Shown here piece by piece: positions 2,953 to 53,719 of a stretch of DNA of 64,000 nucleotides. A program made the translations under genes and the position numbers. Numbering within the stretch: position 1 is the stretch's first letter; each line of letters starts with the position of its first letter. Source of the DNA: a virus. The notes below the pieces were generated by a model. That model worked only from the letters and a program-made list of their open reading frames with translations. It ran no database searches and was not told where the DNA came from. The DNA lies in IMG/VR virus record IMGVR_UViG_3300044446_000019, positions 1 through 64,000 of that record; one strand, given 5' to 3'.

Positions 2953-3241
2953 GATCGCCTGGAAGGCGATCTCAGTGACCCAGACCCGTGCCACGCAGCA
3001 GGGTCTGGACTTTTTTGAGGAACTGAACCGGGTTGGGCTTCTGGCCACAGAACCCCGAATTCGAGAGATCCAAGTACTTGCATTAAGGAATATGTTGGAT
3101 TATCTGGAAACTGGGCTATCGGTCACAGACCTCAACAGAACGTACCAACGTGGAAATTCCAACCCTGCGACGCCGGCCGACACGTACAACGCTGTCCTCA
3201 GCTGGATCCGTACCTACGTCAATGCCATCAGCAACGACTGA
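2933..3241 (+). CDS. Hypothetical protein
   Basis: 102 residues from a GTG inside the preceding gene. Mostly helical, without cysteines or obvious motif; the C-terminus (TYNAVLSWIRTYVNAI) is amphipathic. Not recognised. Followed by a C-rich non-coding array. Confidence 0.6.
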   Translation: MREPLTEIAWKAISVTQTRATQQGLDFFEELNRVGLLATEPRIREIQVLALRNMLDYLETGLSVTDLNRTYQRGNSNPATPADTYNAVLSWIRTYVNAISND

Positions 3242-3242
3242 T

Positions 3243-3459
3243 CCTTTCTTCTCAGGTCCTTACTGCTCGACTTACCGAACCAGGTTCAGCTCTGCTCCAC
3301 CCGACATGCCACCGCAGCTCTAGTCGTATCTGCGCCATCCGGCTCCGACGAGCCAAATCTCCTCGGCACTTCCCTCCTCCGACGAGCCAAATCTTGTCCC
3401 CCCGACCCGACGTTCCAAATCGGGCCTTGAGCAACCCCAACCATTTCGAAGGAGGATCA
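3243..3459 (+). repeat. C-rich CCGAC array 1
   Basis: Non-coding, C-rich and G-poor on the + strand, with five CCGAC pentamers. An 18-bp unit, ctccgacgagccaaatct, occurs twice (3343-3360 and 3377-3394). It ends at the ribosome site of the gene at 3460. The same motif defines the arrays at 4018, 7205 and 44040. Confidence 0.75.
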
Positions 3460-4014
3460 GTGACCTCTGTTGAGCCCTACCAGCCACCGCCGAACCGAGA
3501 CTACGCAGCTGATATGCGCAAGTATCTCGACGAGGCGCGCACCGGAGGCGACAGCTACAACGCAGTAACCGCTGCCAGAGAAATTGCTCAGAAGCTACTT
3601 CAGGACGATCGGGAGCTGTATTACGGGTGGCTCGAAGCGCACGCAGAGAGCACTATCCGTACTGCCCTCGCTGCTGCTGATGCAGCCACCCGGGCTCACG
3701 CCCGCAAGAGTCCGGCCTCTGTGTTCGCTGCCGCAGCTGTTGCTGCTGAGGCAGGTGACCCACGGCCACTACGGCAGGGATTCCTGCAAGCCGTCTACAC
3801 GGTAGACGCTGACCACAACAGAAAAGCGTTGAAGGACATGAAGGCCGAGGATCTGAACTTCGTGGCCGCGTTCTATGAGGACCGGGCCCGGAGCCATATG
3901 TTCGAGGCTGCCTTCTTCCGGGCTTTGGCCAAAAAGGTGGAAGATGGCCGGGTCGCTGACAAATTCGACAACATGACACTTTCTGAACTACATAACCAAG
4001 TCACCGGTAAATAG
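3460..4014 (+). CDS. Hypothetical helical protein
   Basis: 184 residues from a GTG six bases after gaaggagg; an in-frame ATG at 3394 lacks a ribosome site and lies in the CCGAC array, so the GTG is preferred. Alanine-rich helices dominate (SVFAAAAVAAEAGDPRPLRQ). No recognisable family. It sits alone between two CCGAC arrays, suggesting shared control with the gene at 4475. Confidence 0.7.
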   Translation: MTSVEPYQPPPNRDYAADMRKYLDEARTGGDSYNAVTAAREIAQKLLQDDRELYYGWLEAHAESTIRTALAAADAATRAHARKSPASVFAAAAVAAEAGDPRPLRQGFLQAVYTVDADHNRKALKDMKAEDLNFVAAFYEDRARSHMFEAAFFRALAKKVEDGRVADKFDNMTLSELHNQVTGK

Positions 4015-4017
4015 TCG

Positions 4018-4470
4018 ACATCTCAGGACGGCACACACCTCTACAACCCCGACCCGACAACACATGTCAACCCGGATCCAACCCGACGAGTCATAACCAA
4101 CCCACGCGCACCCGATCCGACGGGTCTACACATCCCAGGTCCTCTCTGTCCTGTACCGACGAGCCTTTTCACTTCCGTCCATCTCCAACGAGTCCATACG
4201 CCCCTAATCCGACAAGCCGTGTCAACTCCCCACAAGTCTCGACGGGTCTTCCCGAGACTCCACCATTCCGCTCTCGTCCGACCATCCACCACCCGCCAAA
4301 GCCACAACCGACAAGTCTCCACCCTCCCTTTCCGAGCCGACATCTCAGAACTCACCGCCCCCCGTCATTTCCGACAAGCCGGGTCTCCTACTTGTCGTTT
4401 CCTAACAGCTCCGACAACACACACCTGCCCCCTGCAATCCCACCCTCTCGACCACCCCATGAGGAGAAAA
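4018..4470 (+). repeat. C-rich CCGAC array 2 (largest)
   Basis: About 450 bases without a credible gene. Eleven CCGAC pentamers occur, many in the context CCGAC-R-A/G-G-Y-C (for example ccgacgagtc, ccgacaagcc, ccgacgggtc), plus TCGAC variants, at irregular spacing. The + strand is very C-rich and poor in G. It leads directly to the ribosome site of the RAMP-like gene. It could be a rut-like RNA tract, a protein-binding array, or both. Confidence 0.75.
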
Positions 4471-4474
4471 CAAA

Positions 4475-5215
4475 ATGTCCGATCGCGTATTCAGTAAATG
4501 GGACAACGAGTCCTACCCGTACCGTTTCAGGGGTCGTCTCGAACTAGGAACCCTGGTTGGTGGTGTACCCAGTGACCCGAAGGTCGCCGAGGGATGGCTG
4601 CGTTCCAAGCTACAAGACACCGACGACCGGATCCGGGAGATGGTTGCTCAGATCATGGTGGAGCGTTCCACCTCCATGGAGGAGGCCACCGAGATCGTCA
4701 ACAGTCTCAAGAACCTGAACGGTTTCAAGCACACGCCCGAGGGTGTCCTCTTCATTGAGGGGCGACAGCTCAAGGCGGCCATCAAGGAGGCCGTATCGAT
4801 TGCGGTCGCGGCAAAGAAACTGGAGATGACCGGCTGGGGTGCCACTCGTAAATGGCTCACCAACTTCCTCCCCGAGCATGTGTTCATCCTTGAAGAGACG
4901 TTGGAGATTAGCCAGTGGGCCGCGAACGGCAAAGATAAGGGGGGTGACCTGGTCAAGGTCACCAAGCCGTCGGGGATCTTCCAGCAGTTCGTGCACACTC
5001 ATCGGGGTTCCAGTATCCAGTACCAGGAATATGTGACGGGTGCGGTGGTCGAGTTCAATCTGATCTCCGACCACCCGTTCACCACCAAGGACTGGGGCAT
5101 GATCTGGACGACCGGCGAGAAGAATGGTCTGGGTGCTTCGCGTTCCCAGGGTTACGGCACCTATGGCGTGACCCTGTGGGAGAACACGGAGCCGGCAGCA
5201 AAGAAGGCTAAGTGA
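4475..5215 (+). CDS. Putative RAMP-superfamily-like protein
   Basis: 246 residues, ATG after gaggag. Two segments resemble RAMP (Cas5/6/7-type RRM-like) proteins: FIEGRQLKAAIKEA at 93-106, like the 'GxxLKGxxREA' helix of Csm3/Cmr-type subunits, and NGLGASRSQGYG at 218-229, like the glycine-rich loop. The N-terminal RFRGRLELGTL could be beta-1 of a ferredoxin-like fold. If correct, RNA binding is likely. No other cas gene is nearby. The resemblance is by motif only and could be coincidental. Confidence 0.4.
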   Translation: MSDRVFSKWDNESYPYRFRGRLELGTLVGGVPSDPKVAEGWLRSKLQDTDDRIREMVAQIMVERSTSMEEATEIVNSLKNLNGFKHTPEGVLFIEGRQLKAAIKEAVSIAVAAKKLEMTGWGATRKWLTNFLPEHVFILEETLEISQWAANGKDKGGDLVKVTKPSGIFQQFVHTHRGSSIQYQEYVTGAVVEFNLISDHPFTTKDWGMIWTTGEKNGLGASRSQGYGTYGVTLWENTEPAAKKAK

Positions 5216-5761: not shown

Positions 5762-6033
5762 CCCGTGCCGTGGCGGCAGCTGGTGCGATTGCCACCACCG
5801 TGCTCCCCGGTAACCTCCGCTGCGACAACTTCCCCGAGTGTAGATCTGAGCTGTTTGGTCAAGGCAATGTGACCTTGACCGACGACCGGGCCCGCGCTCG
5901 GGGTTGGCATATCTATCCGTGGTCGGCTAAGTCCACTGAGGCCCGTCATGTGCTGTGCAAGGACTGCGTTGGCCGACGCATGCGACTGGCCCCAGCGCCG
6001 GAAACCCTGTCCGGACAAGAGGAGCTGTTCTGA
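5758..6033 (+). CDS. Small zinc-ribbon-like protein
   Basis: 91 residues; ATG overlaps the previous TGA. Four cysteines arranged as CDNFPEC and CKDC, separated by about 40 residues, suggest a zinc knuckle. Such small Cys4 proteins are common in actinophages, usually without known function. Confidence 0.65.
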   Translation: MTRAVAAAGAIATTVLPGNLRCDNFPECRSELFGQGNVTLTDDRARARGWHIYPWSAKSTEARHVLCKDCVGRRMRLAPAPETLSGQEELF

Positions 6034-7204: not shown

Positions 7205-7345
7205 CCTTACCTGGCACAGACTCGACTAGACATCTCCGATCCTCCCATTTCCAACGACTCACCTCAGCACGCCGGCTCCACTCACACCGACTACTCGATG
7301 CTGCACTTCCCCAATCCACCCGGCTCCGACTATCCACAGAGGAGT
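7205..7345 (+). repeat. C-rich CCGAC array 3 (short)
   Basis: About 140 non-coding, C-rich, G-poor bases with two CCGAC pentamers and related TCGAC/ACGAC words, ending at the leader of the gene at 7350. Weaker than arrays 1, 2 and 4. Confidence 0.55.
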
Positions 7346-7349
7346 ACCG

Positions 7350-7718
7350 ATGCCACTACCAGATCCGTACGTCAACGAACCCACCGCTGATCTGGATCCG
7401 CACACCTTCGGTCTGTATATGGAGGCCATGGATGCAATCGCCCAGTGGGACAAGGAAGCCAAGCGTCTGAAAGACCTCCTGATCAAGGAGATCGGTGATG
7501 CTCACGCTGGCCTCATCAACGGCCGCAAGGTGATCTACTACCGGCCAGCCGATCGGTGGGCCGAGGCTCGAATGATCAAGGACTACCCGGATCTGACCGG
7601 ACACTACATCAAGCCGAAAGTGACCCAGGTATTTGACCTGGACTCGTTCTCTTCCGCGCACCCCGACATCACCGAACAGTACCGGGTACGGAGTTTCCGG
7701 AGCGTGGGCGATGTCTGA
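7350..7718 (+). CDS. YqaJ/exonuclease C-terminal-like stand-alone protein
   Basis: 122 residues. An acidic helical N-terminus (EAMDAIAQWDKEAKRLKDLL) is followed by a segment (GRKVIYYRPADRW, then IKDYPDLTGHYIKP and a terminal YRVRSF) resembling the C-terminal extension of YqaJ-type phage exonucleases, which usually reads G-x-V-x-W-x-R followed by a Lys/His-Pro helix. Here it stands alone without a nuclease core. Weak similarity from memory. Confidence 0.5.
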   Translation: MPLPDPYVNEPTADLDPHTFGLYMEAMDAIAQWDKEAKRLKDLLIKEIGDAHAGLINGRKVIYYRPADRWAEARMIKDYPDLTGHYIKPKVTQVFDLDSFSSAHPDITEQYRVRSFRSVGDV

Positions 7719-10116: not shown

Positions 10117-10188
<72 letters not shown>

Positions 10189-10206
10189 CTTAACGGAAAG
10201 ACTTTG

Positions 10207-10437
10207 ATGAAAGCTGTCATCAGTTACAGCGTGGCCAACACAGTTCACGAGCTGAGCGTTGAAGCGCCGTTCGTGAGCACTCAACTGTTCTCCGATGGCC
10301 AGGCCATGATCATGCTCAGAGACGAGGACTACGGAATGCCCACAGAGGTGATCCAACTCCGAAGTGTCTGGGTCATCAGAAAAACCGGCATCAGCCCAGC
10401 CCCTGTAGCTCAACAGGACAGAGCAGTTCCTTCCTAA
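10207..10437 (+). CDS. Hypothetical protein overlapping tRNA-Arg
   Basis: 76 residues from ATG 10207, with a TTG directly upstream as an alternative. The first 60 residues look coding (VHELSVEAPFVSTQLFSDGQ); the last dozen codons run into tRNA-Arg, and the stop lies in its anticodon loop. Not recognised. Confidence 0.5.
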   Translation: MKAVISYSVANTVHELSVEAPFVSTQLFSDGQAMIMLRDEDYGMPTEVIQLRSVWVIRKTGISPAPVAQQDRAVPS

Positions 10438-10471
10438 GGAACAGGTCCGGGTTCAACTCCTGGCAGGGGCT
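10399..10471 (+). tRNA. tRNA-Arg(CCU)
   Basis: A complete cloverleaf: acceptor gcccctg/caggggc, anticodon stem gttcc/ggaac with loop ttcctaa (anticodon CCT), T arm with ttcaact loop. It reads AGG, a rare Arg codon in GC-rich actinobacteria. No encoded CCA. Confidence 0.88.
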
Positions 10472-10493
10472 CTCCCCAAGGAAGTAGGTAGCC

Positions 10494-32260: not shown

Positions 32261-35200
32261 TTACTTCGCCTCCCTCTTCTTCCTCGCTTCAAGCATCATC
32301 CGCTTGAGCCACGCCTGAACCTCAGGATCACTTGTAGCCTTTTGCATAATGTCCCACATCGTTGTGGCGGCGTCAGTGCCCTCGTGGAAGTCCCTCTGGT
32401 TCAGTTCACGCTCTGCTGCACCTAGCCGTAGAAGTTCCTGTTCATCACCCGCGAGAAGTCTGCGGATGATGTCTTCCTTCTTTTCGATGAGGGAGGGTTT
32501 GCCGGGTTCGAAGCTACCGGTCCCCACTCTCCGCATGAAGCTTCCCTTCGGCACCTTAATCCGGGCCGTGGGGATGGCAGCAAGTTTCTCGAACGCATCA
32601 CGAAGAGCCTTGGGCGCATCGGCAGGGAGGTCTACCTTGCGTCCAAGCGGTGGTGCGTCGATAGCATCGATGGCTCTCTGGATTCGGTCAGCGACACCCT
32701 GATCGGCGGCGGTCTTCTTCATCTCCCTCAAGCGGTCGATGAATTTACTCAGCTCAAGCTTGTCTCGACCCATTTGATCACCCATACGAGCGATCTCGTT
32801 GATGAAGGAGTTCGGTTCCCGGTCATCCATGTACAGATCAGCCCACAGGGCTCCTAGTTCGGAGTCCAGGTGCATCAGACCCTGATCATTGCCACCGTTG
32901 GGTAGGTAGATGGGTTCGTCAGCGTTGGGACGTTCGCGCTTGATGATGCGACCATCGCCACCGGTTGCTTTGTATTTGAGGGATTCCACCGGCGGCCCGG
33001 GAGCAGCAGGCGAACTGCCGGTGGCAGCAGTCTTCTTTGCAGCAGCCTTCTTTACTGGGGCAGCCTTAGATCGGGCGGCAAGGATGGCGTCAACCCGGGC
33101 CGACTTGAGCAGAGTCGGACGCTCCAGGTTCAGCTCGTCCTCGATATCCTTCAGCTCACCGGGCGACATGTCCATGAGTTCTTCACGGGTCTGTGTACCG
33201 CCGGTGGATGGTGCCGCCGTCTTCGTGACCTTCTTGGCCGCCGCTACCTCGCGCTTGACCTCCGCTTTTGTCTCCGTGCTGGATGCAGCCTTCTTCGCTG
33301 GTGTCCCCCGAAGCTCCGCGATGATGCCTTCGTCTCGGGAAATGTCAGCACGGATTTGGTTACTCTGTGCAGATTCTGTGCCACCGCTGGATCCCGCTGG
33401 GATCTTGCGGTGAGCAAGGCGATCGGTGCGCTCCCTGTTATGCAGTTCAAGCTCCTGGATGGCGCGTGTCTTAGTGACACGACCGCCAGCCACTGCCTTC
33501 GTGAAGTCATCGCCAGTCATGGCAGCGATCTCACGGGGTGTTGCCTTCGCTTCCGTAGTGGGACCAGTCGACTCATTGCGCATCCCACCACGGGTCAGGA
33601 CAGCCATGTTCCTGTTCATCTGTTCCTGCGCGGCGGCCGCAGCTGCGGCCTTCTTCGTTACCTTCCTCGCAGGCGGCGCGGACTTGGCGGCACGGGCCAA
33701 TGTCTCCTTGACCGGGGTACGACTGGACTCCACAATCCTTGCCACGGCAGCAGCGTCTCCAGTAAATCCCCTGGAAGAGATGGGTCCCGGTGCCTTCTTC
33801 GCTGCCGTACGCCGGGCCAATTCAGCGGCAACGGTGGCCTTCTGATCGTCACCGAACTGTGGACTCTCGGTGATCTTCTTCAGGTCATCATCAGCGAGCG
33901 GAGACAGGTTGCTCTGAACTGTCTTCGAGACCTTCTTGGCCGGCGGCAGGTCAGCGGCAACGTCAGCCTTGGCGGCAGGGGTAGCCCTGGAACGTTTGGT
34001 CTTCTTCAACGCCTCCGCGAGTGCTTTCCATCGTGCACTCTGGGCGCGGTACATCTGCGTATTGGCTTCAGCATCCGCCAACTCTGCGCGTGCAATGGCG
34101 ATGTCTTCGGGGGTGACTGAGTTCTTCAGCCGCCTCTTCGCCCCATCAACAAGAATGGTGTTGGTTGCTGCGGCGTAGCCAGGACTGCCAGCTCCCCCGC
34201 TCCAGTTGTCCAACCACCGTCCGATGGCGGCAGGTGTTGCATTCTTGGGTAGCCCGCTGTCACGGAGAGCTTCAGTGTCACCATCAAGGAGACGTTGAAT
34301 CCGGTCCAGCATGTTCTTGTCATTGCCGACGGAGCCTGGTGCTTCGGCATACGCCTGGTCTGGTACCAGGGTGCGGGCATCGATCTTGGCAGCTGGTGGT
34401 TTGGGTGCAGCCTTCTTCTTCGGCAGTGGCGCTGGTGGTGTGAGGTCGATCGGGTCGCCGGCCTGCTGGCGCCGGATCATTTCCCGGGCAAGCTCAGTCA
34501 GTACCTCATCCTTCGTGGTGGCAGCCTCAGGCAGCTTGATGCCGGCAGCCTTGGCGTCCGCCTTAATCTGAGCGACGCTGATTTTTCCTAGCTCCGGGTC
34601 CACTACCCGGATGACTTCCTTCTTGGTCACCAGTTCCGGGGAGTCTCCAGTATGGAGCGCTGCGGCTGCACTCTGGATCCACTGTGCTCGTTCCAGTTCC
34701 TCAGTGATCCGCTTACCGAGGAACTCCTTGTTGGCTTGGGTTTGACCTGGTGCTTCTAACCCTGCCCGGTAGGATTTGAGGCTGTCGTCGGAGCGGCTAA
34801 GTAGACGCTTCAGCTCCGCCTTGGCGTCGTCAACCTTGCCCTTACCTAGGAGGTTCTCCACGGTGGCGTAGTCCAGGGCGGCGGGGCCACCGGCAGGACG
34901 CTTGATCCCAGCGTCTGCCATGATCTTGTCGAGATCATGACCGCCCTTCTTGACCCGCTTGTCCTCCAGGGCTACCCGTTCGCTGATATCCAGGAGATGT
35001 TTGCGATCCTTCTCCGACATCTCAGCCAGGACGCCGTCGCGGTACTCCGGTTTGATACGAGCCAGCATCCGGACAGCTACTCGGTCCTCCACGCTGACCT
35101 TGGAGGGACCGCTGGTGGTCTCAACTTCGTCGCGGATCTCCTTGGCCATCTTGACCAGGTCGTGGCCAGTCTGTCCGGGCATCTGTTTGGCCAGCTCATC

Positions 35201-38200
35201 AAACGGGTCGCCCTGTTGGGCCTGCATATCAGCCAGAACTTCGCGGGCACGCTGTTGTAAACGTGCTCGTTCGGCGGTATCAATGCCGGGGATTTTCCTT
35301 GGTTCCGGTGCGGTAGCAGGGGCCTCCGGAGTCCTTTCGAGCAGGTCGATCAAGTCCTGCTTCTTGGCCCGCTGCGGTGGGTTCAGGCCACGGTCAGTGG
35401 CCATCTCCCGCAACTGGCGCACCGTGTTGCCCTTGAGCGGGGAACCGAGGTCTACCTCAGGAGCTGGTCCCTCTGGCGCTACACCGAGACGGCCACGGAT
35501 GTCGTTGATGACGTCCCCGGCGGCCTCCCCCGCAAGGACCCGGTTGGACAGTTCCGGAAGGTTGTCGTCGCGTTCCTTCTTCGTCAGCTCAGTCCGAGCA
35601 GCCTTCTTGGCTGGCGCACTGAGGGCACGGTGGACAACGTTCTGGCCGGCGATCGACTGGAGGGTGATCTCGTTACCGTCTTCATCGGTACCGCTGATCT
35701 TGTACCCGGTCTGCCGACCAACCTGTGCCCGGTCGATCTTGGAAACCGTGAGCGTCTTGGCCCCGGTCTTGCGGGCACTACTGCTCCAGTTGCCCTTAGT
35801 GTCCTGCTGAACGCGAAGCTTCTCGCCCACCTTGAGCCGAGAGGCAGACACCGTCGGCTTGTTCGGGTCAGACAGCTGATCCTGGTGCGCCTTGAAAGCT
35901 GCCTCGATCTCCGCTTCCCGGGCAGCAGCCTTCGCTGCCTTGGCCAGGACCGGTGGAGTGTCCGGGGCTACTTCGATCGCCTTCAGTGCCTTGACCTCAG
36001 GCGTGGCCTTCTTGCCCAGATTGGCGATGGTCTTCTCAGCCTTGGCCAGCGCGGCATCGTCGGCTGCGGTAGCCGGACCCAGCTTACTCGGGGTCAGCCT
36101 CTTGATCGGGGCGCCGCTGCCCATGCGGTCAAGGGTCTTCTGTGCCTTGGCAATCGTCTCTTCGTCAGTGAGAACCTTAGGCGCGGCAACCTTCTTGGCA
36201 GGTGCGGCCAGCTTCGCAGGCGCAGCCTGCTTCATGTCAGCGGCTACGTCTTCCTTCGCCGCACCACCCTTGCGCTGTAGCTCCGGTGTGGCCTTCCACT
36301 TGGCCGCCAGTTCCTTGGACAGGGCTGCCTTCAGCTTGAGCTTCTTGTCCTCGCCACGGGTCTCCACGCCCCACTTCTCAGCGAGAGCGCGGAGGTCCCC
36401 GACCGTGAGTCCATTAAGGCCGGTGAGAATGTTCTTCTCTGTGCGACCTTCCAGCTTCTTCTGGGCAGCTTCAACGTCCGGTGCAGCCTTGGGGGCACGC
36501 TTCTTCAGCGGTACACGCTTGGCTGGCTTAGACTCGTCGGCTTCGATAACGTCAGCAATCTTGCGCAGGTAGTTGGCTTCGGGGGTGTCATCCTCCTTGG
36601 CCTGATCCCGTAGCCGCTGCACCGCCTTCGGTCGAGTGACCCTGCCATTACGCAACAGGTCAGCGGTTTCGTCTAGCAGGATATTGCCGGCGGTGTCGCC
36701 GGAGCGCATGCTAGCCGGTTCCGCGCCCACCGCATCCGACCACCGGGACCGCTGCTCCGCGTTCAGGCGGTCGTCTTCAATGTCCTTCTCTTGCTGAGTA
36801 CCCAGACCCTTGGCACGAGACTCGGGCGTACCGTCGGTCCGTTTCGGAGCCACCTTCGCCAATGGGCCAGGGCGGGCGGCCTCAGTGGCAGTCTTCTTCG
36901 CCCCCGGCACCCTGTCTGTTCCACCGCCGGGACGAGTCAGCGCCTTCTTCGCGGCAGCCGCTGCTTTCTGGTCCAGCTCGTTACGAACGTCAGCCTTGGC
37001 CTGACGCTGTTGCGGCGTACCCAAGGTGAAGTGGGAACGGATAAGGTCCGCGAGTTTCTCCTGCTTACTGATGTCGTCAGCCAGCAAGGAGTCGCCACGG
37101 CCCACCTCCGTCGCCTGGAGCTTCTTGTTGGTAGCAATGTCTGCTTCCAACTCCCGCAACATGTCGGCGGGGTGCTGCTTGCCAGAGGTAATGCCGGTGT
37201 AGGCGCTGTTCCATTCCTTACGACGTGGGCCAGCCGACGGTGCCTCCAGACTGGCAGCCGAGGCCGCGTCCCGGAAGCTGGTGGCAGGTTCCCCGGTGAC
37301 CACGGAGGTGGCACCATTGGGGGTCTCCGGCGCCGGTGGGGTCTGGGGAGTTTCTACCGGCGCCGGAGCTGGTACGTTCGGGGCCTCACGAGGTGCCGGC
37401 TGCGTGACCGCCGGAGCCGGTGTCGGTGAGAGGCCCGCCGCCGTTGACTCTGCCGGTTGTACGGCGGCGGGTCCTCTACCGAGTACGGCAGCCCGTCGTT
37501 GAGCCCGAACCTGCTCTGGGGTCATTCCTTCAGGTGGGTTTTCGAGAGCTTCTCCGGGAAGTGCACCGAGAGGTTGACTGCCAGTTTCGCGAGCGGAGGC
37601 AGCGTCCTCCAGTTTCTTGATGTTGCCCTCGCGGTCCTGGGGCATACCGGAACCCTGGTGACCGGACTCAGGTAGCGGGGTCTCACCAGGAGTCTTCGGG
37701 GTCGCTACCACCGACATGATGTAGCCGCCACGACCGTCAGGCTTGACCTTGGTGATGGTCATTTCCTGGTCGCGGTCCATGAAGATGGCCCGGTCTGTGC
37801 CACTCCTGGCCGGGATGGCGACCCGCGTTCCCTTGGGTGCGGCAATCCTCATCTGGATCATGCCCTGACCACCAGCGGCCGGGGTGCCCAGGTTGGTGGC
37901 CAGGTAGCCACGGTCGGCGATGACGTCGCCGGTCAGTTCTTCCAGCTCGGGTAGCCGGTCAGCGGTGAGACCGAAGGCGTCCGGCGTGGCAACGTGGTTG
38001 ATGATCAGGTCTTCGGGCGTCTCCTCCATGGAGGCGTCCATCATGTCGACGAACTTCTTCGTGGACGGCTCGTCAATCTTGCCGTCACGAAGATCCTGGT
38101 TGGCGTTATCGAAATCGGCCTGCAACCGGGCGAAGCCCTTGCCTCCACCGAAACGACCAGGCTTCTTATGACCCAGGTTGTTGGTGTACTGGGTCGCCTG

Positions 38201-38362
38201 AGAGTCGCTCTGGAAGAAGCGAGGGTGATAGGCGCCAAGCACCTTCTCCACCGCTGCGAGGACAGAAGGGGACATTTTCCACTTGCTACGGAAACGCCCG
38301 TGACTGTCGCGAGGATGGAGCAATTCCTCGCGAGTGCCCCAGCTGTCACCAATTCCGGCCAT
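32261..38362 (-). CDS. Giant virion protein with ADP-ribosyltransferase domain
   Basis: 2033 residues. N-terminal ART-like domain at about 45-220: RGYLATNLG stands for the STS strand, and GTDRAIFMDRDQEMTITKV carries the (E/Q)xE-type site as D-Q-E. The remainder is Lys/Ala-rich and low complexity with at least three SAP/HeH-like helices (LRALAEKWGV near 650, VRQLREMATDRGLNPP near 975, MSPGELKDIEDELNLERP near 1730) that could bind DNA. Location between protease and capsid genes suggests it is packaged and ejected to modify host proteins. Confidence 0.75.
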   Translation of the reverse strand: MAGIGDSWGTREELLHPRDSHGRFRSKWKMSPSVLAAVEKVLGAYHPRFFQSDSQATQYTNNLGHKKPGRFGGGKGFARLQADFDNANQDLRDGKIDEPSTKKFVDMMDASMEETPEDLIINHVATPDAFGLTADRLPELEELTGDVIADRGYLATNLGTPAAGGQGMIQMRIAAPKGTRVAIPARSGTDRAIFMDRDQEMTITKVKPDGRGGYIMSVVATPKTPGETPLPESGHQGSGMPQDREGNIKKLEDAASARETGSQPLGALPGEALENPPEGMTPEQVRAQRRAAVLGRGPAAVQPAESTAAGLSPTPAPAVTQPAPREAPNVPAPAPVETPQTPPAPETPNGATSVVTGEPATSFRDAASAASLEAPSAGPRRKEWNSAYTGITSGKQHPADMLRELEADIATNKKLQATEVGRGDSLLADDISKQEKLADLIRSHFTLGTPQQRQAKADVRNELDQKAAAAAKKALTRPGGGTDRVPGAKKTATEAARPGPLAKVAPKRTDGTPESRAKGLGTQQEKDIEDDRLNAEQRSRWSDAVGAEPASMRSGDTAGNILLDETADLLRNGRVTRPKAVQRLRDQAKEDDTPEANYLRKIADVIEADESKPAKRVPLKKRAPKAAPDVEAAQKKLEGRTEKNILTGLNGLTVGDLRALAEKWGVETRGEDKKLKLKAALSKELAAKWKATPELQRKGGAAKEDVAADMKQAAPAKLAAPAKKVAAPKVLTDEETIAKAQKTLDRMGSGAPIKRLTPSKLGPATAADDAALAKAEKTIANLGKKATPEVKALKAIEVAPDTPPVLAKAAKAAAREAEIEAAFKAHQDQLSDPNKPTVSASRLKVGEKLRVQQDTKGNWSSSARKTGAKTLTVSKIDRAQVGRQTGYKISGTDEDGNEITLQSIAGQNVVHRALSAPAKKAARTELTKKERDDNLPELSNRVLAGEAAGDVINDIRGRLGVAPEGPAPEVDLGSPLKGNTVRQLREMATDRGLNPPQRAKKQDLIDLLERTPEAPATAPEPRKIPGIDTAERARLQQRAREVLADMQAQQGDPFDELAKQMPGQTGHDLVKMAKEIRDEVETTSGPSKVSVEDRVAVRMLARIKPEYRDGVLAEMSEKDRKHLLDISERVALEDKRVKKGGHDLDKIMADAGIKRPAGGPAALDYATVENLLGKGKVDDAKAELKRLLSRSDDSLKSYRAGLEAPGQTQANKEFLGKRITEELERAQWIQSAAAALHTGDSPELVTKKEVIRVVDPELGKISVAQIKADAKAAGIKLPEAATTKDEVLTELAREMIRRQQAGDPIDLTPPAPLPKKKAAPKPPAAKIDARTLVPDQAYAEAPGSVGNDKNMLDRIQRLLDGDTEALRDSGLPKNATPAAIGRWLDNWSGGAGSPGYAAATNTILVDGAKRRLKNSVTPEDIAIARAELADAEANTQMYRAQSARWKALAEALKKTKRSRATPAAKADVAADLPPAKKVSKTVQSNLSPLADDDLKKITESPQFGDDQKATVAAELARRTAAKKAPGPISSRGFTGDAAAVARIVESSRTPVKETLARAAKSAPPARKVTKKAAAAAAAQEQMNRNMAVLTRGGMRNESTGPTTEAKATPREIAAMTGDDFTKAVAGGRVTKTRAIQELELHNRERTDRLAHRKIPAGSSGGTESAQSNQIRADISRDEGIIAELRGTPAKKAASSTETKAEVKREVAAAKKVTKTAAPSTGGTQTREELMDMSPGELKDIEDELNLERPTLLKSARVDAILAARSKAAPVKKAAAKKTAATGSSPAAPGPPVESLKYKATGGDGRIIKRERPNADEPIYLPNGGNDQGLMHLDSELGALWADLYMDDREPNSFINEIARMGDQMGRDKLELSKFIDRLREMKKTAADQGVADRIQRAIDAIDAPPLGRKVDLPADAPKALRDAFEKLAAIPTARIKVPKGSFMRRVGTGSFEPGKPSLIEKKEDIIRRLLAGDEQELLRLGAAERELNQRDFHEGTDAATTMWDIMQKATSDPEVQAWLKRMMLEARKKREAK

Positions 38363-41017: not shown

Positions 41018-41736
41018 CGGCCTCCTTCGTTAACGATTACTAAGTCGCATCTACAGCCAACCACTTCATCAGCTGGTCCTTGCGGATCTCCGGGAAACAA
41101 CATCGGATAGCCGCCAACGTTGAACGGTTGATACAGCGGGAGGGTGACTCCGTCTATCGCAGAATGAGTCGGTCGTACCCGGGAGTCATGTTCGGTACGC
41201 CAGCGCTTCTGCAAGAGACGCCCGGTAACACGTGACTGCTCCAGACCTGCTGCCGTCGTTCCAGCTCCGTAGGCACGGGTGACTTCAGTAATAGCGATGA
41301 CTCGGGCTCGGTTGGCCCACCGTTCTGACCCCGTTGTTTCAAGGACTGCATCGACCATCCGCGCAATGTCGTCGGTACTGCCACCGGCGTTGACCCCATC
41401 GACGATCTCCCCAAAGACAAGGTTGTAAACCTCGTCCGGGATGCGGACGAGGAAGTTCTGGGTCTGCGCCAGTTGAGCAACGACGAAAGCGTGACGGGAC
41501 ACTGGTGGCACATCGGTGGCCTCCACCCAGGCGTGCATGGAAATCTGACCCAACACGGTCAGGATGGTGTCGGTGCTCCACTGGTCCTGGGCTTGGAAGA
41601 CGCCGCTGGGGTCGGGCATCCCTTTCCAGCCACGGAACGGGGCCATCACCTTGGTCCGGGCAGCGTTAATGAACCGATCCAGCGCTGACTTGACTACACC
41701 GAAGACCTTGTTCTCATCTGCGTCACGATTCGCCAT
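41014..41736 (-). CDS. MuF-like minor capsid protein
   Basis: 240 residues from the ATG at 41736, within the portal's 3' end. Its C-terminal half carries the MuF signature: TEHDSRVRPTHSAIDGVTLP, a G-G-Y-P-M-L-F-P-G-D-P stretch, and CRCDLVIV. MuF proteins attach to portal and help head morphogenesis. An upstream in-frame ATG at 41928 would overlap the portal by 200 bases and is less likely. Confidence 0.85.
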   Translation of the reverse strand: MANRDADENKVFGVVKSALDRFINAARTKVMAPFRGWKGMPDPSGVFQAQDQWSTDTILTVLGQISMHAWVEATDVPPVSRHAFVVAQLAQTQNFLVRIPDEVYNLVFGEIVDGVNAGGSTDDIARMVDAVLETTGSERWANRARVIAITEVTRAYGAGTTAAGLEQSRVTGRLLQKRWRTEHDSRVRPTHSAIDGVTLPLYQPFNVGGYPMLFPGDPQGPADEVVGCRCDLVIVNEGGR

Positions 41737-43651
41737 GGAGGAAGCCCTGTCGCGACAGCATTTCCCAGAGGAGACCGGCTTCGTGTGGACGCTCAGCTTC
41801 CAGCAGCGTGGAGCAGTAGCGGTGCAGAGTGACGGCCAGCTCGGGGTCCTGGAGTTGTGGCATCTCCAGGAACTCGGCGAGCGCGGGCATCTGGTCCCAC
41901 GCCCCGGTGAGTAGCTTGGAAGCACCACCAGCCTGCACTTTGACCTTGGTGTGCAGCGAATAGGCGGGAGTGTCCTGCATTGTCCGATGATGATTACCGA
42001 CTAGTCGCTTTCCGGCGACTTCGAGCGCACGCAAAACCGCCATATTCGCGACAGCAAACACGGCTTGCGTTCCGGGGACCACGGAGGCGGAAGCAGTTAT
42101 CCCAGGTGGCTGACTGGAGTTTGGTGCAGTTGGTCCACCTGGTGTGGACAGGGCCGACGAGTCTTGCGGCATCGGCGATGGTCCGGTGGGCTGGATTCCG
42201 GTAGGTGGAGCAGGGGGCGGTGGAGGACCCGCCCCCTGCTGACCGGGTACCTGTGGCGTCACGACGGTATTCGGGGGAAGAATTTCGTCGGTGTACCCGG
42301 CGATCTTGCGTACCGCTGGGATCTGGAACAGCGTCGGGTCGCGTTCCATCAGGGTGCGGGTGAAGTACATCAGGTCTTCCTCGCGACTGGGCTTGTCGCT
42401 CAGCTTGAAGTCACCAGCAAGGATGACCGCTTCGTCCGAGATGATGTGTTTTTCGTTCAGATTCAGGGCGTCCTTCAGTCGCTCCGGGCGTACGGTCAGC
42501 GGAGCGGTGTCGAACCAGAAGACGAACCGGTCCGGGTCTTCCTTGATCGCCTTCAGAGCCGGGGTCAGGTACGCCGTGGTCAGGGCGTCACAAATCCGAG
42601 TCATCAGGGGTTCAATGTGGATCTTTATATTCGCTTCTTCGACGTGCCAGGCGCTCCAGTGGTTTGCATCGCCAGTGCCTGTGAGGATCTCCGGAGCGAT
42701 ATCCATAGCCAGGGCGAAACGACGGATGGCCTCTGCGCGGAGGTCCAGCGCCTGTTTGCTGAGATCCGAACCGAAGGTGACCATCTCGATCTTGCCGAGG
42801 GCATCCATCGGTACCTCGACGAACATGGGCACGACACCTGCTGCGGTCCCCTCACCCTTCAGCGACCGGGACCCAGCTTTCATCATCGCCTGGGTGAGAC
42901 CCTCAGCCCCAGGGACAGTGACGTCGTTACTGTCGTCCGGGAAGGACGCCTCTTTCGGGATGGGAACCATGCCCGCTGAGATCAGCCGAGAATCGATCTG
43001 GGCGAAGACGTACCGGGTTAGTCGCTCGATCTCCCAGAGCATCGGCATAGCCGCACGGGTAGGCGAGTCCGCCCACAGAGAACGACGCGGATGGGGCGTC
43101 CAGACCCGGATGACAATGTCCTTGTCCAGGTCCAGTGATTCTTTAGTGCCGTCCGGATACAGCTGCTGAACGTTGCCGTTCCAACGCTTGAGCTCGGAAC
43201 AACTGACGATGTACCACTCGTCAGCTTCGTTGTCACGGACCGCGCCCCGGCCCACGATGTAGCAATCACCCGCAACAGTGAGATTGATACCCAACATCCG
43301 CAGGGCTTCCGACTGTGCCGCTGGGGAACCGAACATGTTCTCTGCAACGGCGGCGACCTTCGGCTTCTTCGTCTCCTGCTGGACGCGACCGTTCTTGTCA
43401 ACCTCAGCCACATAGATGCGGACCCTGGAGCACGCGGACCCGATCCAGTTCGCCGCGAACCTCAGCTCACCGATGATGTCGTACAGGCGCCAGACTTCCT
43501 GCTGCCACGAGTCATCACCGAAGCGATAGGTCCGCCATCCCTGCCCGTCAATGTTCCTAATCCGGGCGGCGGAGGCAATCAGTGAAGTGAGTTCCGAAGG
43601 GTGTTCCGGTTCCGGTGCGGCAACTGGGGCCTTGGGCCGGCGGATTCCCAT
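41723..43651 (-). CDS. Portal protein
   Basis: 642 residues. ELRFAANWIGSACSRVRIYV, YIVGRGAVRDNEADEWYIVS, WTPHPRRSLWADSPTRAAMP and DLRAEAIRRFALAMDIAPEILTG are hallmarks of the SPP1/HK97-like portal family in actinophages. A Pro/Gly-rich linker separates a short C-terminal helical domain. It overlaps the MuF gene by 14 bases. Confidence 0.9.
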   Translation of the reverse strand: MGIRRPKAPVAAPEPEHPSELTSLIASAARIRNIDGQGWRTYRFGDDSWQQEVWRLYDIIGELRFAANWIGSACSRVRIYVAEVDKNGRVQQETKKPKVAAVAENMFGSPAAQSEALRMLGINLTVAGDCYIVGRGAVRDNEADEWYIVSCSELKRWNGNVQQLYPDGTKESLDLDKDIVIRVWTPHPRRSLWADSPTRAAMPMLWEIERLTRYVFAQIDSRLISAGMVPIPKEASFPDDSNDVTVPGAEGLTQAMMKAGSRSLKGEGTAAGVVPMFVEVPMDALGKIEMVTFGSDLSKQALDLRAEAIRRFALAMDIAPEILTGTGDANHWSAWHVEEANIKIHIEPLMTRICDALTTAYLTPALKAIKEDPDRFVFWFDTAPLTVRPERLKDALNLNEKHIISDEAVILAGDFKLSDKPSREEDLMYFTRTLMERDPTLFQIPAVRKIAGYTDEILPPNTVVTPQVPGQQGAGPPPPPAPPTGIQPTGPSPMPQDSSALSTPGGPTAPNSSQPPGITASASVVPGTQAVFAVANMAVLRALEVAGKRLVGNHHRTMQDTPAYSLHTKVKVQAGGASKLLTGAWDQMPALAEFLEMPQLQDPELAVTLHRYCSTLLEAERPHEAGLLWEMLSRQGFLHGES

Positions 43652-44003: not shown

Positions 44004-44031
44004 TTGGACATTGCCTGGGGAGGGGTAGGGT
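44004..44031 (+). promoter_or_regulatory. Plus-strand promoter reading into array 4
   Basis: TTGGAC (44004-44009), a 16-bp spacer with ggggagggg, TAGGGT (44026-44031). It fires opposite to the flanking late genes, into the CCGAC array and then across the 3' end of the terminase gene. Confidence 0.55.
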
Positions 44032-44039
44032 GATGGAGA

Positions 44040-44430
44040 CAATTCGACGCGCTTCATGTTCTTACTGTTCTCCTCCGACTCGCCGGATCGCCCCAATATC
44101 ATCCGACTTCCCTCGACAGCTCTTTCCATCCCGACCCTCTCGACGAATCTCCACTGCGCCGGTCGGACCCGACGAATCTCCACTTCTCACTCCCGTGTCG
44201 ACTACCCGTCTCGTCTCCGACATGCCTAACCAAGTCGCCCCAACCCATCCGACACGTCTATATCTCTCCGGATTCCGGTCTGGTGCTGGCTCGTTCCGAG
44301 CTGACATATCGCGTCCTCTTACTTCCACCTCCGACATGTCAAACCTCCCCGAATCCGTTCCGACTGCCCCTATCCGCCCGGGTCAGGTCTCCCTCGACAA
44401 GCCGGGCCATTCCGACCCGAGTCTCATACG
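44040..44430 (+). repeat. C-rich CCGAC array 4
   Basis: About 390 bases between minus-strand genes. Nine CCGAC and several TCGAC words, C-rich and G-poor on the + strand only, like arrays 1-3 although it is not in a + strand operon. Preceded by a + strand promoter. A 162-codon frame from 44030 exists but has an S/P/R-biased composition and is not considered a gene. Confidence 0.7.
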
Positions 44431-44432
44431 AC

Positions 44433-45869
44433 TTACCACTGCGGTTGGAGCTGGGACAGGTCGTAAAACTCCTGGCCCAGGTTCCACTCCTGCGCGGAGG
44501 GTTGAGCGATCTTCATGACGCGACGCTCTCCGCGCATCAGGTGGAGGCAGCCATGAACAAGGGCATCCATCCGGTCGGGAGATTCCCTTGTGGACTCGGG
44601 ATCGAACATGGTCATCTCGGTTTCGAGGTCGTCCCACTCACCGACCATGTGTAGCCGGCCCTGTTCGCAGCGCATGGCTACCGGCTCAGCTCTTGTACGT
44701 TTGCCATGTTTCGCGTGCACAGGATACATAGATGGAGAGCTATGTTCAGGGAAAAGACCGAGAGTTATCGACTCTTTGAAGGCATCCTGCAATACTTCCG
44801 CGAGATACCTTTTGCCGAGGTTCTCCTCGTAGACGAGGGTATCGGCGCCCCACTTAGACATTGCTCGCCAGGCTGCCAAAGCTGCTGTGCGACCACTCTG
44901 TTCGACACTGGCGTCCTCAAGCACATAGAGATCGTTGTTCACGGTCCGCGCAACGACCACGATCCCGAACAGGTCGTCCTCACCGGTCAGGTTTGGGTCC
45001 ACTCCAACAATGGTGCTGACGATGTCAGTCGGGATTTCAGTCACGCGACCCTTGACTATGTCCATCCGTTTGAATAGGCCACCGGCCCCCAGTTCCAGTA
45101 GCTTCCCGTACAGCTCCTGTTGACCCAGATCTGAGTCCGCGTACCGGATCTTCAACTCCCGCAGCACATGCGCGGACAAGTTGGTCGCGTTGTCGAAAGT
45201 AGAACCCCCCATAATGTGGATGGTCCCGTCATCACGCTTCACCCACTCCTGAAGCAGCTTGATTGGCTTCGGCGTAGTGGTGGCGAAGCAGCGAGGATGG
45301 TCGTCCATCAAGTCAGTACGTAAAGACGGGAGGATCCCCTCATACCAGCTCTCATACGACTTCGGCCATTTACAGATCTCATCTACCCAGGCGCCGGCCG
45401 CGTTATAACCTCGGCCCACGTCCTCATCGTCCGCCCCTTCGGCGTAGATCCGAGACCCGTCTGGGAACAGAACCATCGGCCGTGGGCTCTGCTTATACCG
45501 AAAGTCAATGCCCCGACGTGTGAGTACGCGCAGCAGACCTGCTGGACCCTCCATACAGATCGTTCGAGTGTCAGCCAGGGTCTCACCGATCAGCAACCAC
45601 TCAGTTGGTTGCCCGTTACGGTCGAATGGATGTTGCAGAACCTTTTCCACGAGCCACTCTGCCCCTGCTCGGGATTTCCCCCAGCCGCGCCCCGCGAGTG
45701 CCAGTGCTACCAGCCAATTCCCCGGTGGTGGCACCTGCTCCGGGCGGGCTGTCCACCACCACTCCCCGCGATTGATCTCCAGCAGCATGTTCAGGGGTAG
45801 CGACCTGATCCAGCTGTCCCGCTCATGGGCAGGGAGCTTAGCCACCCGTTGTGCCAGAGATAAACCCAT
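44433..45869 (-). CDS. terL: Terminase large subunit
   Basis: 478 residues. Walker A as AGRGWGKSRAG at 59-69, Walker B with VDE at 162-164 (GAWVDEI), the C motif FATTTPKP, and the nuclease domain starting at VGVDPNLTG with later acidic residues (YEENLG, SPDRMDALVHG). It pumps DNA into the prohead with a nuclease that cuts concatemers. First gene of the late minus operon. Confidence 0.93.
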   Translation of the reverse strand: MGLSLAQRVAKLPAHERDSWIRSLPLNMLLEINRGEWWWTARPEQVPPPGNWLVALALAGRGWGKSRAGAEWLVEKVLQHPFDRNGQPTEWLLIGETLADTRTICMEGPAGLLRVLTRRGIDFRYKQSPRPMVLFPDGSRIYAEGADDEDVGRGYNAAGAWVDEICKWPKSYESWYEGILPSLRTDLMDDHPRCFATTTPKPIKLLQEWVKRDDGTIHIMGGSTFDNATNLSAHVLRELKIRYADSDLGQQELYGKLLELGAGGLFKRMDIVKGRVTEIPTDIVSTIVGVDPNLTGEDDLFGIVVVARTVNNDLYVLEDASVEQSGRTAALAAWRAMSKWGADTLVYEENLGKRYLAEVLQDAFKESITLGLFPEHSSPSMYPVHAKHGKRTRAEPVAMRCEQGRLHMVGEWDDLETEMTMFDPESTRESPDRMDALVHGCLHLMRGERRVMKIAQPSAQEWNLGQEFYDLSQLQPQW

Positions 45870-46307: not shown

Positions 46308-46380
46308 GGATCCATAGCTCAGAGGTGAGAGCAGTGGTCTTATATACCACCGGTCGCAGGTTCGAATCCTGCTGGATCTA
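46308..46380 (+). tRNA. tRNA-Ile(UAU)
   Basis: Acceptor ggatcca/tggatct (G1-U72), D stem gctc/gagc, anticodon stem gtggt/accac with loop cttatat (anticodon TAT), T arm gcagg ttcgaat cctgc. UAU reads AUA directly and is rare in bacteria, which normally use a CAU tRNA modified to lysidine. No encoded CCA. Confidence 0.85.
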
Positions 46381-46381
46381 C

Positions 46382-46456: not shown

Positions 46457-46470
46457 CCGCAACTTCATAT

Positions 46471-46552
46471 GTAGGTACGCCACAGATGGTGAGGTGGGCC
46501 TGGCTGTAAACCAGGTGCTTCGGCTGAGGGAGTTCGAATCTCTCTACCTGCA
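46471..46552 (+). tRNA. tRNA-Tyr(GUA)
   Basis: 82 nt. Acceptor gtaggta/tacctgc (one wobble), anticodon stem cctgg/ccagg with loop ctgtaaa (GTA), a long variable arm as expected for bacterial tRNA-Tyr, and T arm gggag ttcgaat ctctc. No encoded CCA. Confidence 0.88.
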
Positions 46553-46553
46553 C

Positions 46554-46627
46554 GGACCCGTAGCTCAGCCTGGCAGAGCAGTGGCCTCTTAAGCCGACGG
46601 TCGCAGGTTCAAATCCTGCTGGGTCCA
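46554..46627 (+). tRNA. tRNA-Lys(CUU)
   Basis: Acceptor ggacccg/tgggtcc, D stem gctc/gagc, anticodon loop ctcttaa (CTT), T arm gcagg ttcaaat cctgc. The anticodon stem has only three Watson-Crick pairs plus a wobble and a G-A mismatch at its base. No encoded CCA. Confidence 0.8.
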
Positions 46628-46652
46628 CGCCCTACGCAAGGTTCGCAAGGGT

Positions 46653-51160: not shown

Positions 51161-53719
51161 TTGAGGTTATCAGATGTAGCTAAGATGTGGCAGTCCAATG
51201 GGGTGTCGATTGTCCCAATCGTTGCCAAAAATCAGCCTGCTGTTCGCTGGAAGCAATATCAGGCCAGGATTCCCGACCTCGGAGAGATCAACGACTGGTG
51301 GGGTAACGGGCACCCATGGGGCATTGCCCTGATCTGCGGTGCCGTCTCCGGTAACCTCGAAATGACCGAAATCGAGGGACGTGCCCTCTCTGCTGCCGGT
51401 TTGACCAAGGTGGCAAATAGTGCAGACACTCTCGGTTGCGGGGAGCTGTGGGACCGACTCAGTACCGGGTTCACGCAGGCGTCGCCCTCAGGCGGATTGC
51501 ACCTTGTGTACCGGATCTCTGATCACGAAGTGCCCGGAAACGAGAAGATTGCTCACGCCGAACCGAGCCTGGACGAGAAGTCCGGCCGGATGGTGCAGCT
51601 GGTCCTCGCCGAGACCCGTGGAGAGGGAGGATATTTCGTCGGGGCCCCGTCGCCAGGTTCGTGTCACCCAAGTGGCGAAGGCTGGTTGTTAGCATCGGGT
51701 GTCTACGGCGAAGTGCCCACGATCACCTGGGATGAACGCCAGCAACTACACGAAGCAATAAGACAAGCACTCGACATCCCCCGCCCGTCCGTGTCTCCTC
51801 CGTTCGACGAATCCACTCGGGACCAGCTGACCCAAGCCCTATCCGACGTGCCAGATCTGCACAACCCCAGCTCGATCTCTCCTCACTCTGCTACCCTCCA
51901 CGAAGCAGCCCTCCAGGCGACCGCCTCCCCAGGTGTTTTGGACCGGAGGGCTGCTTCTATTTCCCCTGGTGACCATTGGTCCGCGTCCACGGACTGGGCT
52001 GACATTCTGGAACCAGAAGGATGGACCTTACTGCGGGGGCAGCACAACGTCAGCCTCGGTGAACGATTGTGGGTACGTCCAGGCAAGAACGCCCGAGAAG
52101 GACACAGCGCCAGCACTGACTATCAGGGCAAACCGGGACTGTATGTCTGGTCCACGTCGGCTGGCCTGGAGTCGGAGACTCCACTGTCCAAACTATTTGT
52201 CCTGGCGCACTACCAGTTCCACGGTGACATGAAGCTGGCCGCACAGGACTTGAAACGTCGCGGCTTCGGCACGGTGGCTCAGCCTGATCTGACGCTGGGG
52301 GAACTGGATCTCAACAGCACCAACGAAGAGCCGGCGCCGGATCCACATTTCAGTCACGACGACACCGGTAACGCGATGCGGCTCTGGCACACGGTGGGCA
52401 GGGCTCGGTTCCGCTGGGTGTACGAACAAAAAGAGGTGTATGCCTGGACCGGGAAGGAATGGGCACCGGATTACAAGGGTGCCCTGGACCGTGAGTGGAT
52501 CAAGCTCACCGAGAGCATGGAGCGGGAGGGACTTGATCAGGAGAACGCTGCCCTGATCAAGTGGGCACGCCGCAGCCGTAGCCGCGACCGGCACAACGCA
52601 GCCTTGTCGATGATGCGAGTCATGGAGGGCGCAACCATCAGCGCCTCTGAGATGAACACTGCGCCGGATCACCTGAACTTGTACAACGGTACGTACAACA
52701 TGAAGACCGGGGTCCTGGAGCCACATAACCCCGAACACCTGATGACCCGCACCATGGTGGCCAGTTACAACCCCGAGGCCACCTGTCCAAAATTTGAGCA
52801 GTTCATGGAGCAGGTGCTGCCCGATCCTGAAGTCCGCGCCTACGTGCAGCGAGCGGTCGGATACAGCTTGCTCGGAAAAGCGGACCACCGAGCGTTCTTC
52901 CTGATCCATGGTCCCAGTGGTACTGGGAAGTCGCAGTTCCTGTCCACTATGGAGTATGTATTTGGTGGGTATGGTGCCACTGCTGCGGAAGGCACCTTCC
53001 GGGTGCACGAAGGTAGTGGACCCAACAACGACTTACATGGTCTACGGGGCAAGCGGTTCGTGTCCACATCGGAGACGGCGGAGAACGCTACCTTCAACGA
53101 GAACCTGCTGAAGCGTTTGACCGGCACGGATCAGGTAGTTTCCCGCGAGATGTACCAGACCAACGTGACCTGGCGCCCCGAGTGTGCACTGTGGCTGGCC
53201 ACGAACCACCCACCACGATTCAACAGTGACGACGACGCGATCTGGAAGCGGGCCAAACTGGTCCCGTTCGTTACTCGCTTTGGCACGGACGTGCCAGAGA
53301 TTCCCAACTTCGCCCGGGACTATCTGTACGCCGAGGCCGATGGCATCTTCAACTGGGTCTTGGCAGGGTTGCACGACTTCCTGGCCAACGGGTTGCAGGA
53401 GCCAGAGGGTGTCCTGGAGGCGGCAAACAAGCACCGCCAGCAGAGCGACACGGTGGCCCGGTTCCTGGATGACCAGATCGCTGACGGCAACCTGCAAGAG
53501 GTCCCGGAGGCCACCATCCGGACGTCGGAGCTGTTCGCCATGTACGAGCAGTGGGGTAAGTCCTCCGGTGAGCGTGGGCTTGGGTCCCGCAGGTTCATCA
53601 ACCGTCTGGAATCCACTGGCCGGGCAACATACACCCGGACCAACGCCCACAGTGTCTGGAAGGGGCTCCATCGATCAGGAGTCCTGGGTGCATACCAGAC
53701 ATCTGTGGATGAAACCTGA
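51161..53719 (+). CDS. Bifunctional primase-helicase (PrimPol + D5/P4-type)
   Basis: 852 residues from a TTG after aaagga. The N-terminal PrimPol-like domain has SPSGGLHLVYR with H114, but the usual D-x-D is E70-x-E72 (MTEIEG). The C-terminal SF3/D5 helicase has Walker A IHGPSGTGKSQF near 582-593, GKRFVSTSETAENATF and ALWLATNHPPRF. It would initiate phage replication with host polymerase, as no DNA polymerase is encoded here. Confidence 0.85.
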   Translation: MRLSDVAKMWQSNGVSIVPIVAKNQPAVRWKQYQARIPDLGEINDWWGNGHPWGIALICGAVSGNLEMTEIEGRALSAAGLTKVANSADTLGCGELWDRLSTGFTQASPSGGLHLVYRISDHEVPGNEKIAHAEPSLDEKSGRMVQLVLAETRGEGGYFVGAPSPGSCHPSGEGWLLASGVYGEVPTITWDERQQLHEAIRQALDIPRPSVSPPFDESTRDQLTQALSDVPDLHNPSSISPHSATLHEAALQATASPGVLDRRAASISPGDHWSASTDWADILEPEGWTLLRGQHNVSLGERLWVRPGKNAREGHSASTDYQGKPGLYVWSTSAGLESETPLSKLFVLAHYQFHGDMKLAAQDLKRRGFGTVAQPDLTLGELDLNSTNEEPAPDPHFSHDDTGNAMRLWHTVGRARFRWVYEQKEVYAWTGKEWAPDYKGALDREWIKLTESMEREGLDQENAALIKWARRSRSRDRHNAALSMMRVMEGATISASEMNTAPDHLNLYNGTYNMKTGVLEPHNPEHLMTRTMVASYNPEATCPKFEQFMEQVLPDPEVRAYVQRAVGYSLLGKADHRAFFLIHGPSGTGKSQFLSTMEYVFGGYGATAAEGTFRVHEGSGPNNDLHGLRGKRFVSTSETAENATFNENLLKRLTGTDQVVSREMYQTNVTWRPECALWLATNHPPRFNSDDDAIWKRAKLVPFVTRFGTDVPEIPNFARDYLYAEADGIFNWVLAGLHDFLANGLQEPEGVLEAANKHRQQSDTVARFLDDQIADGNLQEVPEATIRTSELFAMYEQWGKSSGERGLGSRRFINRLESTGRATYTRTNAHSVWKGLHRSGVLGAYQTSVDET

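Follow-up and report, generated by a model that had tools for sequence, protein, structure and literature searches.

Class 1 CRISPR-Cas systems consist of an array of near-identical repeats accompanied by cas genes. The phage-associated TIGR-Tas systems resemble the locus described here in their tandem guide arrays but differ from it in protein family and in their box C/D-like guides. The closest described system is VIPR (Viral Interference Programmable Repeat), for which a 2026 preprint takes the type II system of Escherichia phage SUSP1 as prototype and draws mainly on GGY-scaffold systems from E. coli and Pseudomonas (PMC13142463). As presented there, a phage-encoded RAMP protein with a glycine-rich loop, separate from Cas5, Cas6 and Cas7, works with guides in which constant GGY, or a scaffold of related consensus, alternates with variable NN, the target DNA being read with one skipped base (PMC13142463). 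The vrRNA co-purifies with Vipr, the ribonucleoprotein binds double-stranded DNA and silences it, and gene repression was measured in E. coli; the type II vrRNAs comprise 9–16 YNNGG repeats and a structured 3′ tail (PMC13142463). The preprint's account distinguishes seven types with accessory genes vap1–6 (PMC13142463). VIPR systems may predate CRISPR.

Here we describe a RAMP gene (hereinafter vipr) and four C-rich noncoding tracts in a 64,000-nucleotide stretch of phage DNA from IMG/VR (hereinafter the window; Table 1). We hold with high confidence that the tracts are arrays of guide RNAs for this RAMP, the whole constituting a VIPR-type system that differs from the SUSP1 prototype in its scaffold and in its more compact units. 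The window has no similar DNA among annotated phages, and by protein its sole annotated phage match is a Microcystis phage record.

Table 1. Features of the putative guide system in the window
Feature	Coordinates	Strand	Remarks
Putative guide array 1	3241..3459	+	Precedes the vap-like gene; units at 3269, 3303 (8 pentamers), 3347 and 3381
vap-like gene, probably accessory	3460..4014	+	184 aa, all-helical, no known fold
Putative guide array 2	4015..4474	+	GAC-delimited units, mostly 29/34/39 bases, 5–7 NN-N-Y-C pentamers each
vipr, RAMP (Cas7-like, predicted)	4475..5215	+	246 aa, G-loop GLGASRSQGYGTY
Putative guide array 3	7205..7349	+	About 3 units; precedes the gene that begins at 7350
Promoter-like box TTGGAC-N16-TAGGGT	44004..44031	+	Immediately 5′ of array 4; late genes on the other strand
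Putative guide array 4	44040..44445	+	Between terminase (44433–45869, −) and portal (41723–43651, −)

The RAMP protein, its neighbor and their distribution

The first-pass annotation, which had drawn attention to the CCGAC motifs of array 2, suggested that the adjoining gene may encode a RAMP-like protein, and structure prediction agrees. The G-loop lies near the C-terminal end of the product and corresponds to the glycine-rich loop of RAMP proteins, its glycines being invariant in A2. An AlphaFold (AF2) model built from 61 relatives (pLDDT 85.7) retrieves type VII Cas7 and Csm3 in Foldseek (E 1e-7, probability 1.00), and a VIA comparison of the model with Cas7/Csm3 yields Z 11.6 over 171 residues. 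Hence, the product is predicted to adopt the CRISPR Cas7/Csm3 fold. At the level of sequence the signal is fainter: searches of Pfam, NCBIfam and the PDB with the protein gave no match, it has no family of its own in Pfam or PHROGs, and PADLOC reports only weak Cas6/Csm3/Csm4 matches; the BFVD match is to a protein named 'Cas system-associated RAMP'. In hhalign, the profile of the family aligns with that of SUSP1 Vipr at E 1.1e-4 with the G-loops in register, the probability being only 56%, and phrog_4652, the family of SUSP1 Vipr, is matched by 3 of the 61 members (best E 0.0023). Profiles are needed on both sides, as hhalign of the family with the single SUSP1 sequence returned nothing. Going by these comparisons, the homology to known Vipr proteins appears weak but direct, and remote. 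The protein shares its fold and glycine-rich loop with Csm3 of type III and with type VII Cas7, and multi-subunit RNA-guided recognition would be expected of it as of them; unlike type III and type VII CRISPR, the locus presents a noncontiguous code in place of a repeat-spacer array, with no other CRISPR-associated gene recognized among the genes examined.

In 37 loci a homolog of the vap-like gene precedes vipr and shares its strand, and 7 of 29 members of its family match phrog_4604, a family of unknown function. The AF2 model of its product is confident (pLDDT 90) and has no PDB matches at E<0.001. It is probably an accessory factor.

Gene and arrays tend to be present or absent together. 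Five near-complete phages whose terminases are related have gene and arrays alike, in the same orientation, and in four of these five the vap-like gene is also found upstream; three further near-complete terminase relatives (G006, G008 and G009) lack the gene as well as the arrays. A fourth contig of this kind, G007, was withdrawn as a control lacking both since its end carries another RAMP. This different, divergent RAMP-like ORF (2050–2671 in L304, corresponding to 41050–41671 at the contig end) has the G-loop GIGASRKMGWGRF and is directly followed by a tract of CGCC-NN hexamers (CGCCGG, CGCCAC, CGCCTC and so on), which might be guides arrayed with a period of 6 bases or else low-complexity sequence of a contig end.

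A profile search of IMG/VR for vipr recovered 78 loci. About 60 of them, by a periodicity threshold that is uncalibrated, have a 250-base tract with 5-base periodicity, mostly within 1–2 kb of the gene, while several relatives have the gene without an array above threshold, in some cases owing to a short contig. Dozens of actinophage contigs carry a Vipr-like gene with arrays nearby. The hosts named for these loci are Actinomadura, Streptacidiphilus and an Acidimicrobiales MAG; in the host survey the gene occurs in only 3 genome contigs and, within the family tested, in 2 of 394 genomes, so that there is no well-sampled host in which targets could be decoded.

Arrays with a five-base register

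Array 2 contains exactly the eleven CCGAC pentamers that had been noted in some 450 noncoding bases, with starts at 4049, 4054, 4083, 4117, 4156, 4209, 4278, 4308, 4337, 4371 and 4411, all on the plus strand and none on the minus strand. Dinucleotide shuffles of 4018–4470 give 2.6 and mononucleotide shuffles 1.4, none of 2000 shuffles reaching 11. The extended context CCGACRRGYC, described earlier as usual, holds for six of the eleven (0.01 in shuffles) and not for the other five. The base counts of the array (C 199, A 111, T 79, G 71) make it the strongest C-over-G skew of the window, as was to be expected from the description of the tract as C-rich and G-poor on the plus strand only. Both the enrichment over shuffles and the conservation in relatives, on which the first-pass annotation had staked the motif array, were found; the motif array is real, but it is the edge of a larger feature, whose 5-base period, unit lengths of 29, 34 or 39 bases and conservation in relatives had been missed.

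This larger feature is a reading register. Following GAC in 4018–4470, C occupies positions +5, +10, +15 and +20 in 93% of cases as compared to 44% in dinucleotide shuffles, such that the plus strand after each GAC resolves into pentamers of the form NN-N-Y-C, and cutting the tracts at CGAC produces recurrent intervals of 29, 34 or 39 bases. When the window is pooled with six related phages, place 5 of pentamers 1–5 after YCGAC is a C in 88, 84, 78, 79 and 71% of cases, respectively, and the C–C autocorrelation peaks at lags 5, 10 and 15. In a pooled parse of 1417 units, places 1 and 2 are near-uniform, place 3 is C-biased, place 4 is C or T and place 5 is C; as places 4 and 5 are themselves criteria of the parse, only places 1–3 are free of circularity. 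Units span 5–9 pentamers between successive GACs, and the window contains about 25 putative guides. Thus, the CCGAC motifs mark the starts of guide units, with GAC as the anchor.

The other three arrays, whose existence the first-pass annotation had implied, divide by how they are recognized. Array 1 is enriched in CCGAC (5 versus 0.6 in shuffles, P about 0.0005), shows lag-5 C periodicity (P<0.0005) and has counterparts in the relatives G001, G003 and G004. Its end carries a ribosome-binding site, just as the 3′ end of array 2 carries that of vipr. Array 3 has no CCGAC enrichment over shuffles and is recognizable by its pentamer structure only, all 18 pentamers of its three units ending in C under the unit parse; matching C-rich tracts occur at 13776 in G001, 12476 in G003 and 5876 in G004. 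Array 4 is again enriched (9 CCGAC versus 2.2, P < 0.0005; C at +5..+20 after GAC 0.76 versus 0.41) and is kept in G001–G004, G010, L004, L009 and L030. Its last bases overlap the 3′ end of the terminase gene, and it is C-rich on the plus strand even though the flanking terminase and portal genes are both on the minus strand. Since a generic scan for sigma-70 consensus promoters did not report the promoter-like box, the latter is put forward on account of its conservation: a GGTAGGGT box just 5′ of array 4 recurs in 8 related contigs, the TTGGAC-like box being less constant. Rfam and tRNA scans returned nothing at the arrays. A further C-rich tract picked by the unit parser (51726–51975) was dropped, as it lies inside the primase gene.

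The strand asymmetry of array 2 had been taken to suggest an RNA-level element. We concur: all four arrays share the same C-rich strand, including array 4, which lies amid minus-strand late genes and has a conserved plus-strand promoter-like box to itself, and array 2 accordingly behaves as an RNA-level element.

A gapped code and its candidate targets

The five places of the pentamer do not evolve alike. When homologous units are compared between contigs (39 pairs), mismatches number 23 at place 1 and 15 at place 2, as compared to 54 at place 3 and 49 at place 4 (P 1e-8), the latter two drifting more despite their more uniform composition. Such unequal drift argues that the units are not merely binding sites, in which equal drift would be expected. 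The clearest case is a nine-pentamer unit shared by L136 and L139, which has kept 18 of 18 NN letters despite changes at 11 of its 27 scaffold letters (Fisher P 0.0014). A GAC stands at either end of the conserved block. Hence, the information resides in the NN letters, with one GAC-to-GAC interval as the unit. A unit from Microcystis phage Mae-JY09 (L003, 8700–9213), a record assigned to Microcystis, and one from L117 have six identical NN pairs with scaffold differences at 5 places.

The NN guides were matched at skips of 0–3 bases to about 1.7 Mb of related phage DNA (3.4 Mb on both strands), from which most natural targets are absent. Strong matches are in excess at a skip of one base only (15 versus 2.5 with shuffled guides); since one guide dominates this count and the excess is small when counted per guide, what counts is which sites are matched and in what register. 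In 1.7–2.8 Mb of related phage DNA, no excess was seen with contiguous or NNN codes, nor with skips of 0, 2 or 3 bases.

Three guides from relatives make that case. The eight pairs of an L087 unit match ten other vipr genes at 16 of 16 letters, in antisense to the codons for KVAEGWLK and with the unread base at every wobble position. An L083 unit of nine pairs matches at 18 of 18 letters in two different terminase genes, across the P-loop RGPHGLGK. The nine-pair unit of L136/L139 matches 106 stretches in IMG/VR at a skip of one base, where chance predicts a handful, and none at a skip of two; all 80 of the matches inspected are antisense and in frame, with the skip at the wobble position, in a helicase motif of the DLII[LF]DEAH type. 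Taken together, these computational matches support the rule of a single skipped base for the guides of the relatives. In the closest relative of the window (L005/G011, terminase 97% identical), a unit matches a pair of homologous genes for a tail protein, at positions that coincide in their alignment, an observation that is suggestive only. For the longest guide of the window itself (unit 3303), a target was sought in IMG/VR and rejected: the 16 matches amount to about 4 distinct sequences and lie in the wrong reading frame, and are hence ascribed to chance.

Separately, the L087 guide (5934–5976) resembles the vipr of its own contig (gene at 6001) at 14 of 16 letters and 7 of 8 dinucleotides; this might reflect either escape from the guide through the one changed pair or autoregulation.

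Accordingly arranged, the parts would operate as follows. An array would be transcribed into a C-rich, G-poor RNA of guide units, each comprising a GAC opening and 5–9 NN-N-Y-C pentamers, with processing presumably occurring at GAC. By analogy with Cas7 filaments, one Vipr subunit might occupy each pentamer and hold N-Y-C as scaffold, leaving the leading two letters to pair with the target, with one unread base between consecutive pairs. If VIPR in E. coli is a guide, the complex would bind the DNA, rather than the RNA, of competing phages or mobile elements and repress their genes, with the product of the vap-like gene upstream potentially serving as accessory factor. On this analogy, the guides and the Cas7-like protein most likely switch off the genes of rival phages.

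Competing readings and relation to VIPR

The tracts are best read as programmable guide RNA arrays and not as a binding or termination tract. Rho rut sites are C-over-G bubbles with irregularly spaced YC dimers that support Rho-dependent termination. The first-pass annotation had offered a rut-like loading tract, and a rut or other anti-termination leader, whose C-rich, G-poor RNA would load a host factor and control the early operon, finds some agreement in the C-over-G skew, the many YC steps, the position of three of the four arrays directly upstream of genes and the array RNA being not unusually structured (z −0.66). However, the 5-base register and the GAC anchors are no part of rut, and a loading tract needs no exact resetting of that register at each GAC; nor does it need NN conservation amid a changing scaffold, or require matches to genes of other phages with the unread base at the wobble position. 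Array 4, moreover, has no gene on its strand to lead into. The suggestion leaves the strict register, the conserved NN letters and the decoded targets unexplained, and we regard it as very improbable.

We give just as little credence to a binding tract through which the RAMP would autoregulate its own operon without any guide function. That array 2 directly precedes vipr, and that arrays and gene co-occur, would suit such a tract. Nevertheless, it would not specifically conserve hypervariable NN pairs, place arrays 40 kb away on the strand opposite to the late genes, or decode to motifs of vipr, terminase and helicase genes.

Two further readings have next to no probability: DNA-level repeats (operators, iterons or packaging sites) would fit the repetition and fixed genomic orientation of the arrays but not their strong strand asymmetry, the hypervariable content between GAC anchors, the co-occurring crRNA-binding fold or the conservation of the code, and a genuine CRISPR array whose repeats have degenerated and whose spacers are contiguous would fit the Cas7-like partner and the interspersed units of fairly regular length but not the finding, from unit cuts and parse alike, that nothing beyond GAC is conserved as the near-identical repeat of class 1 systems, nor the recognition of no other CRISPR-associated gene among the genes examined, nor the lack of any excess in contiguous or 0-skip matching.

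In favoring guide arrays, we are guided by the likeness to SUSP1 as far as the preprint's description extends: a phage-encoded RAMP flanked by noncoding guides and, probably, by an accessory gene, repeats of five bases of which two are hypervariable, a gapped reading that passes over a single target base, most often at the codon wobble, and some guides aimed at the vipr genes of other phages. Judged from sequence, the actinophage system displays the general features of VIPR that sequence analysis can address, namely a RAMP with a G-loop, a remote sequence link, flanking pentamer guides of a consensus related to GGY/NN and, for the guides of relatives, the one-base skip. Measured against the same description, it departs in its C-rich N-Y-C scaffold, as opposed to the G-rich GGY, and in its units of 5–9 pairs opened by GAC with no structured tail seen, as opposed to 9–16 repeats with a structured 3′ tail. 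Unlike SUSP1, it has its units strung into long arrays that occupy as many as four sites in the genome, one of them preceded by a separate promoter-like box, and is found in actinobacterial phages with a protein similar only remotely in sequence. Given the C-type scaffold, the 5–9 pentamers and the RNA without unusual structure, it is not VIPR type II, although it may be one of the seven types of the preprint (PMC13142463). We are evenly divided on a more specific proposal, that it represents a further, so far uncharacterized type found in actinobacterial phages. In this type, every unit between GACs, only 5–9 dinucleotides long, would be a complete, tail-less guide, long arrays could be remote from vipr and have a promoter to themselves, and a single phage would deploy dozens of guides against the vipr, terminase and helicase genes of rivals.

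That this gapped code recurs in a distant lineage whose scaffold differs supports the generality of noncontiguous guide RNAs, and indicates that scaffold letters may vary from one lineage to another and that guides can be compact, with 10–18 informative letters. Here the code was reached by reading raw sequence, comparing dozens of phages and following natural covariation and natural targets. GAC followed by an NNNYC register beside a RAMP gene offers a signature with which to search for such arrays.

Elsewhere in the window, five tRNA genes are present at 10117–10189 (Met), 10399–10472 (Arg(cct)), 46308–46381 (Ile(tat)), 46468–46551 (Tyr) and 46554–46628 (Lys(ctt)), and a very large minus-strand ORF (32261–38362, 2033 aa), rich in Ala/Lys low-complexity sequence, adjoins the structural genes. 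The segment 58040–58330 is G-rich on the plus strand, with repeated GGATCATG and GGGGAGGGAGGTTAGGGG motifs and a skew opposite to that of the arrays.
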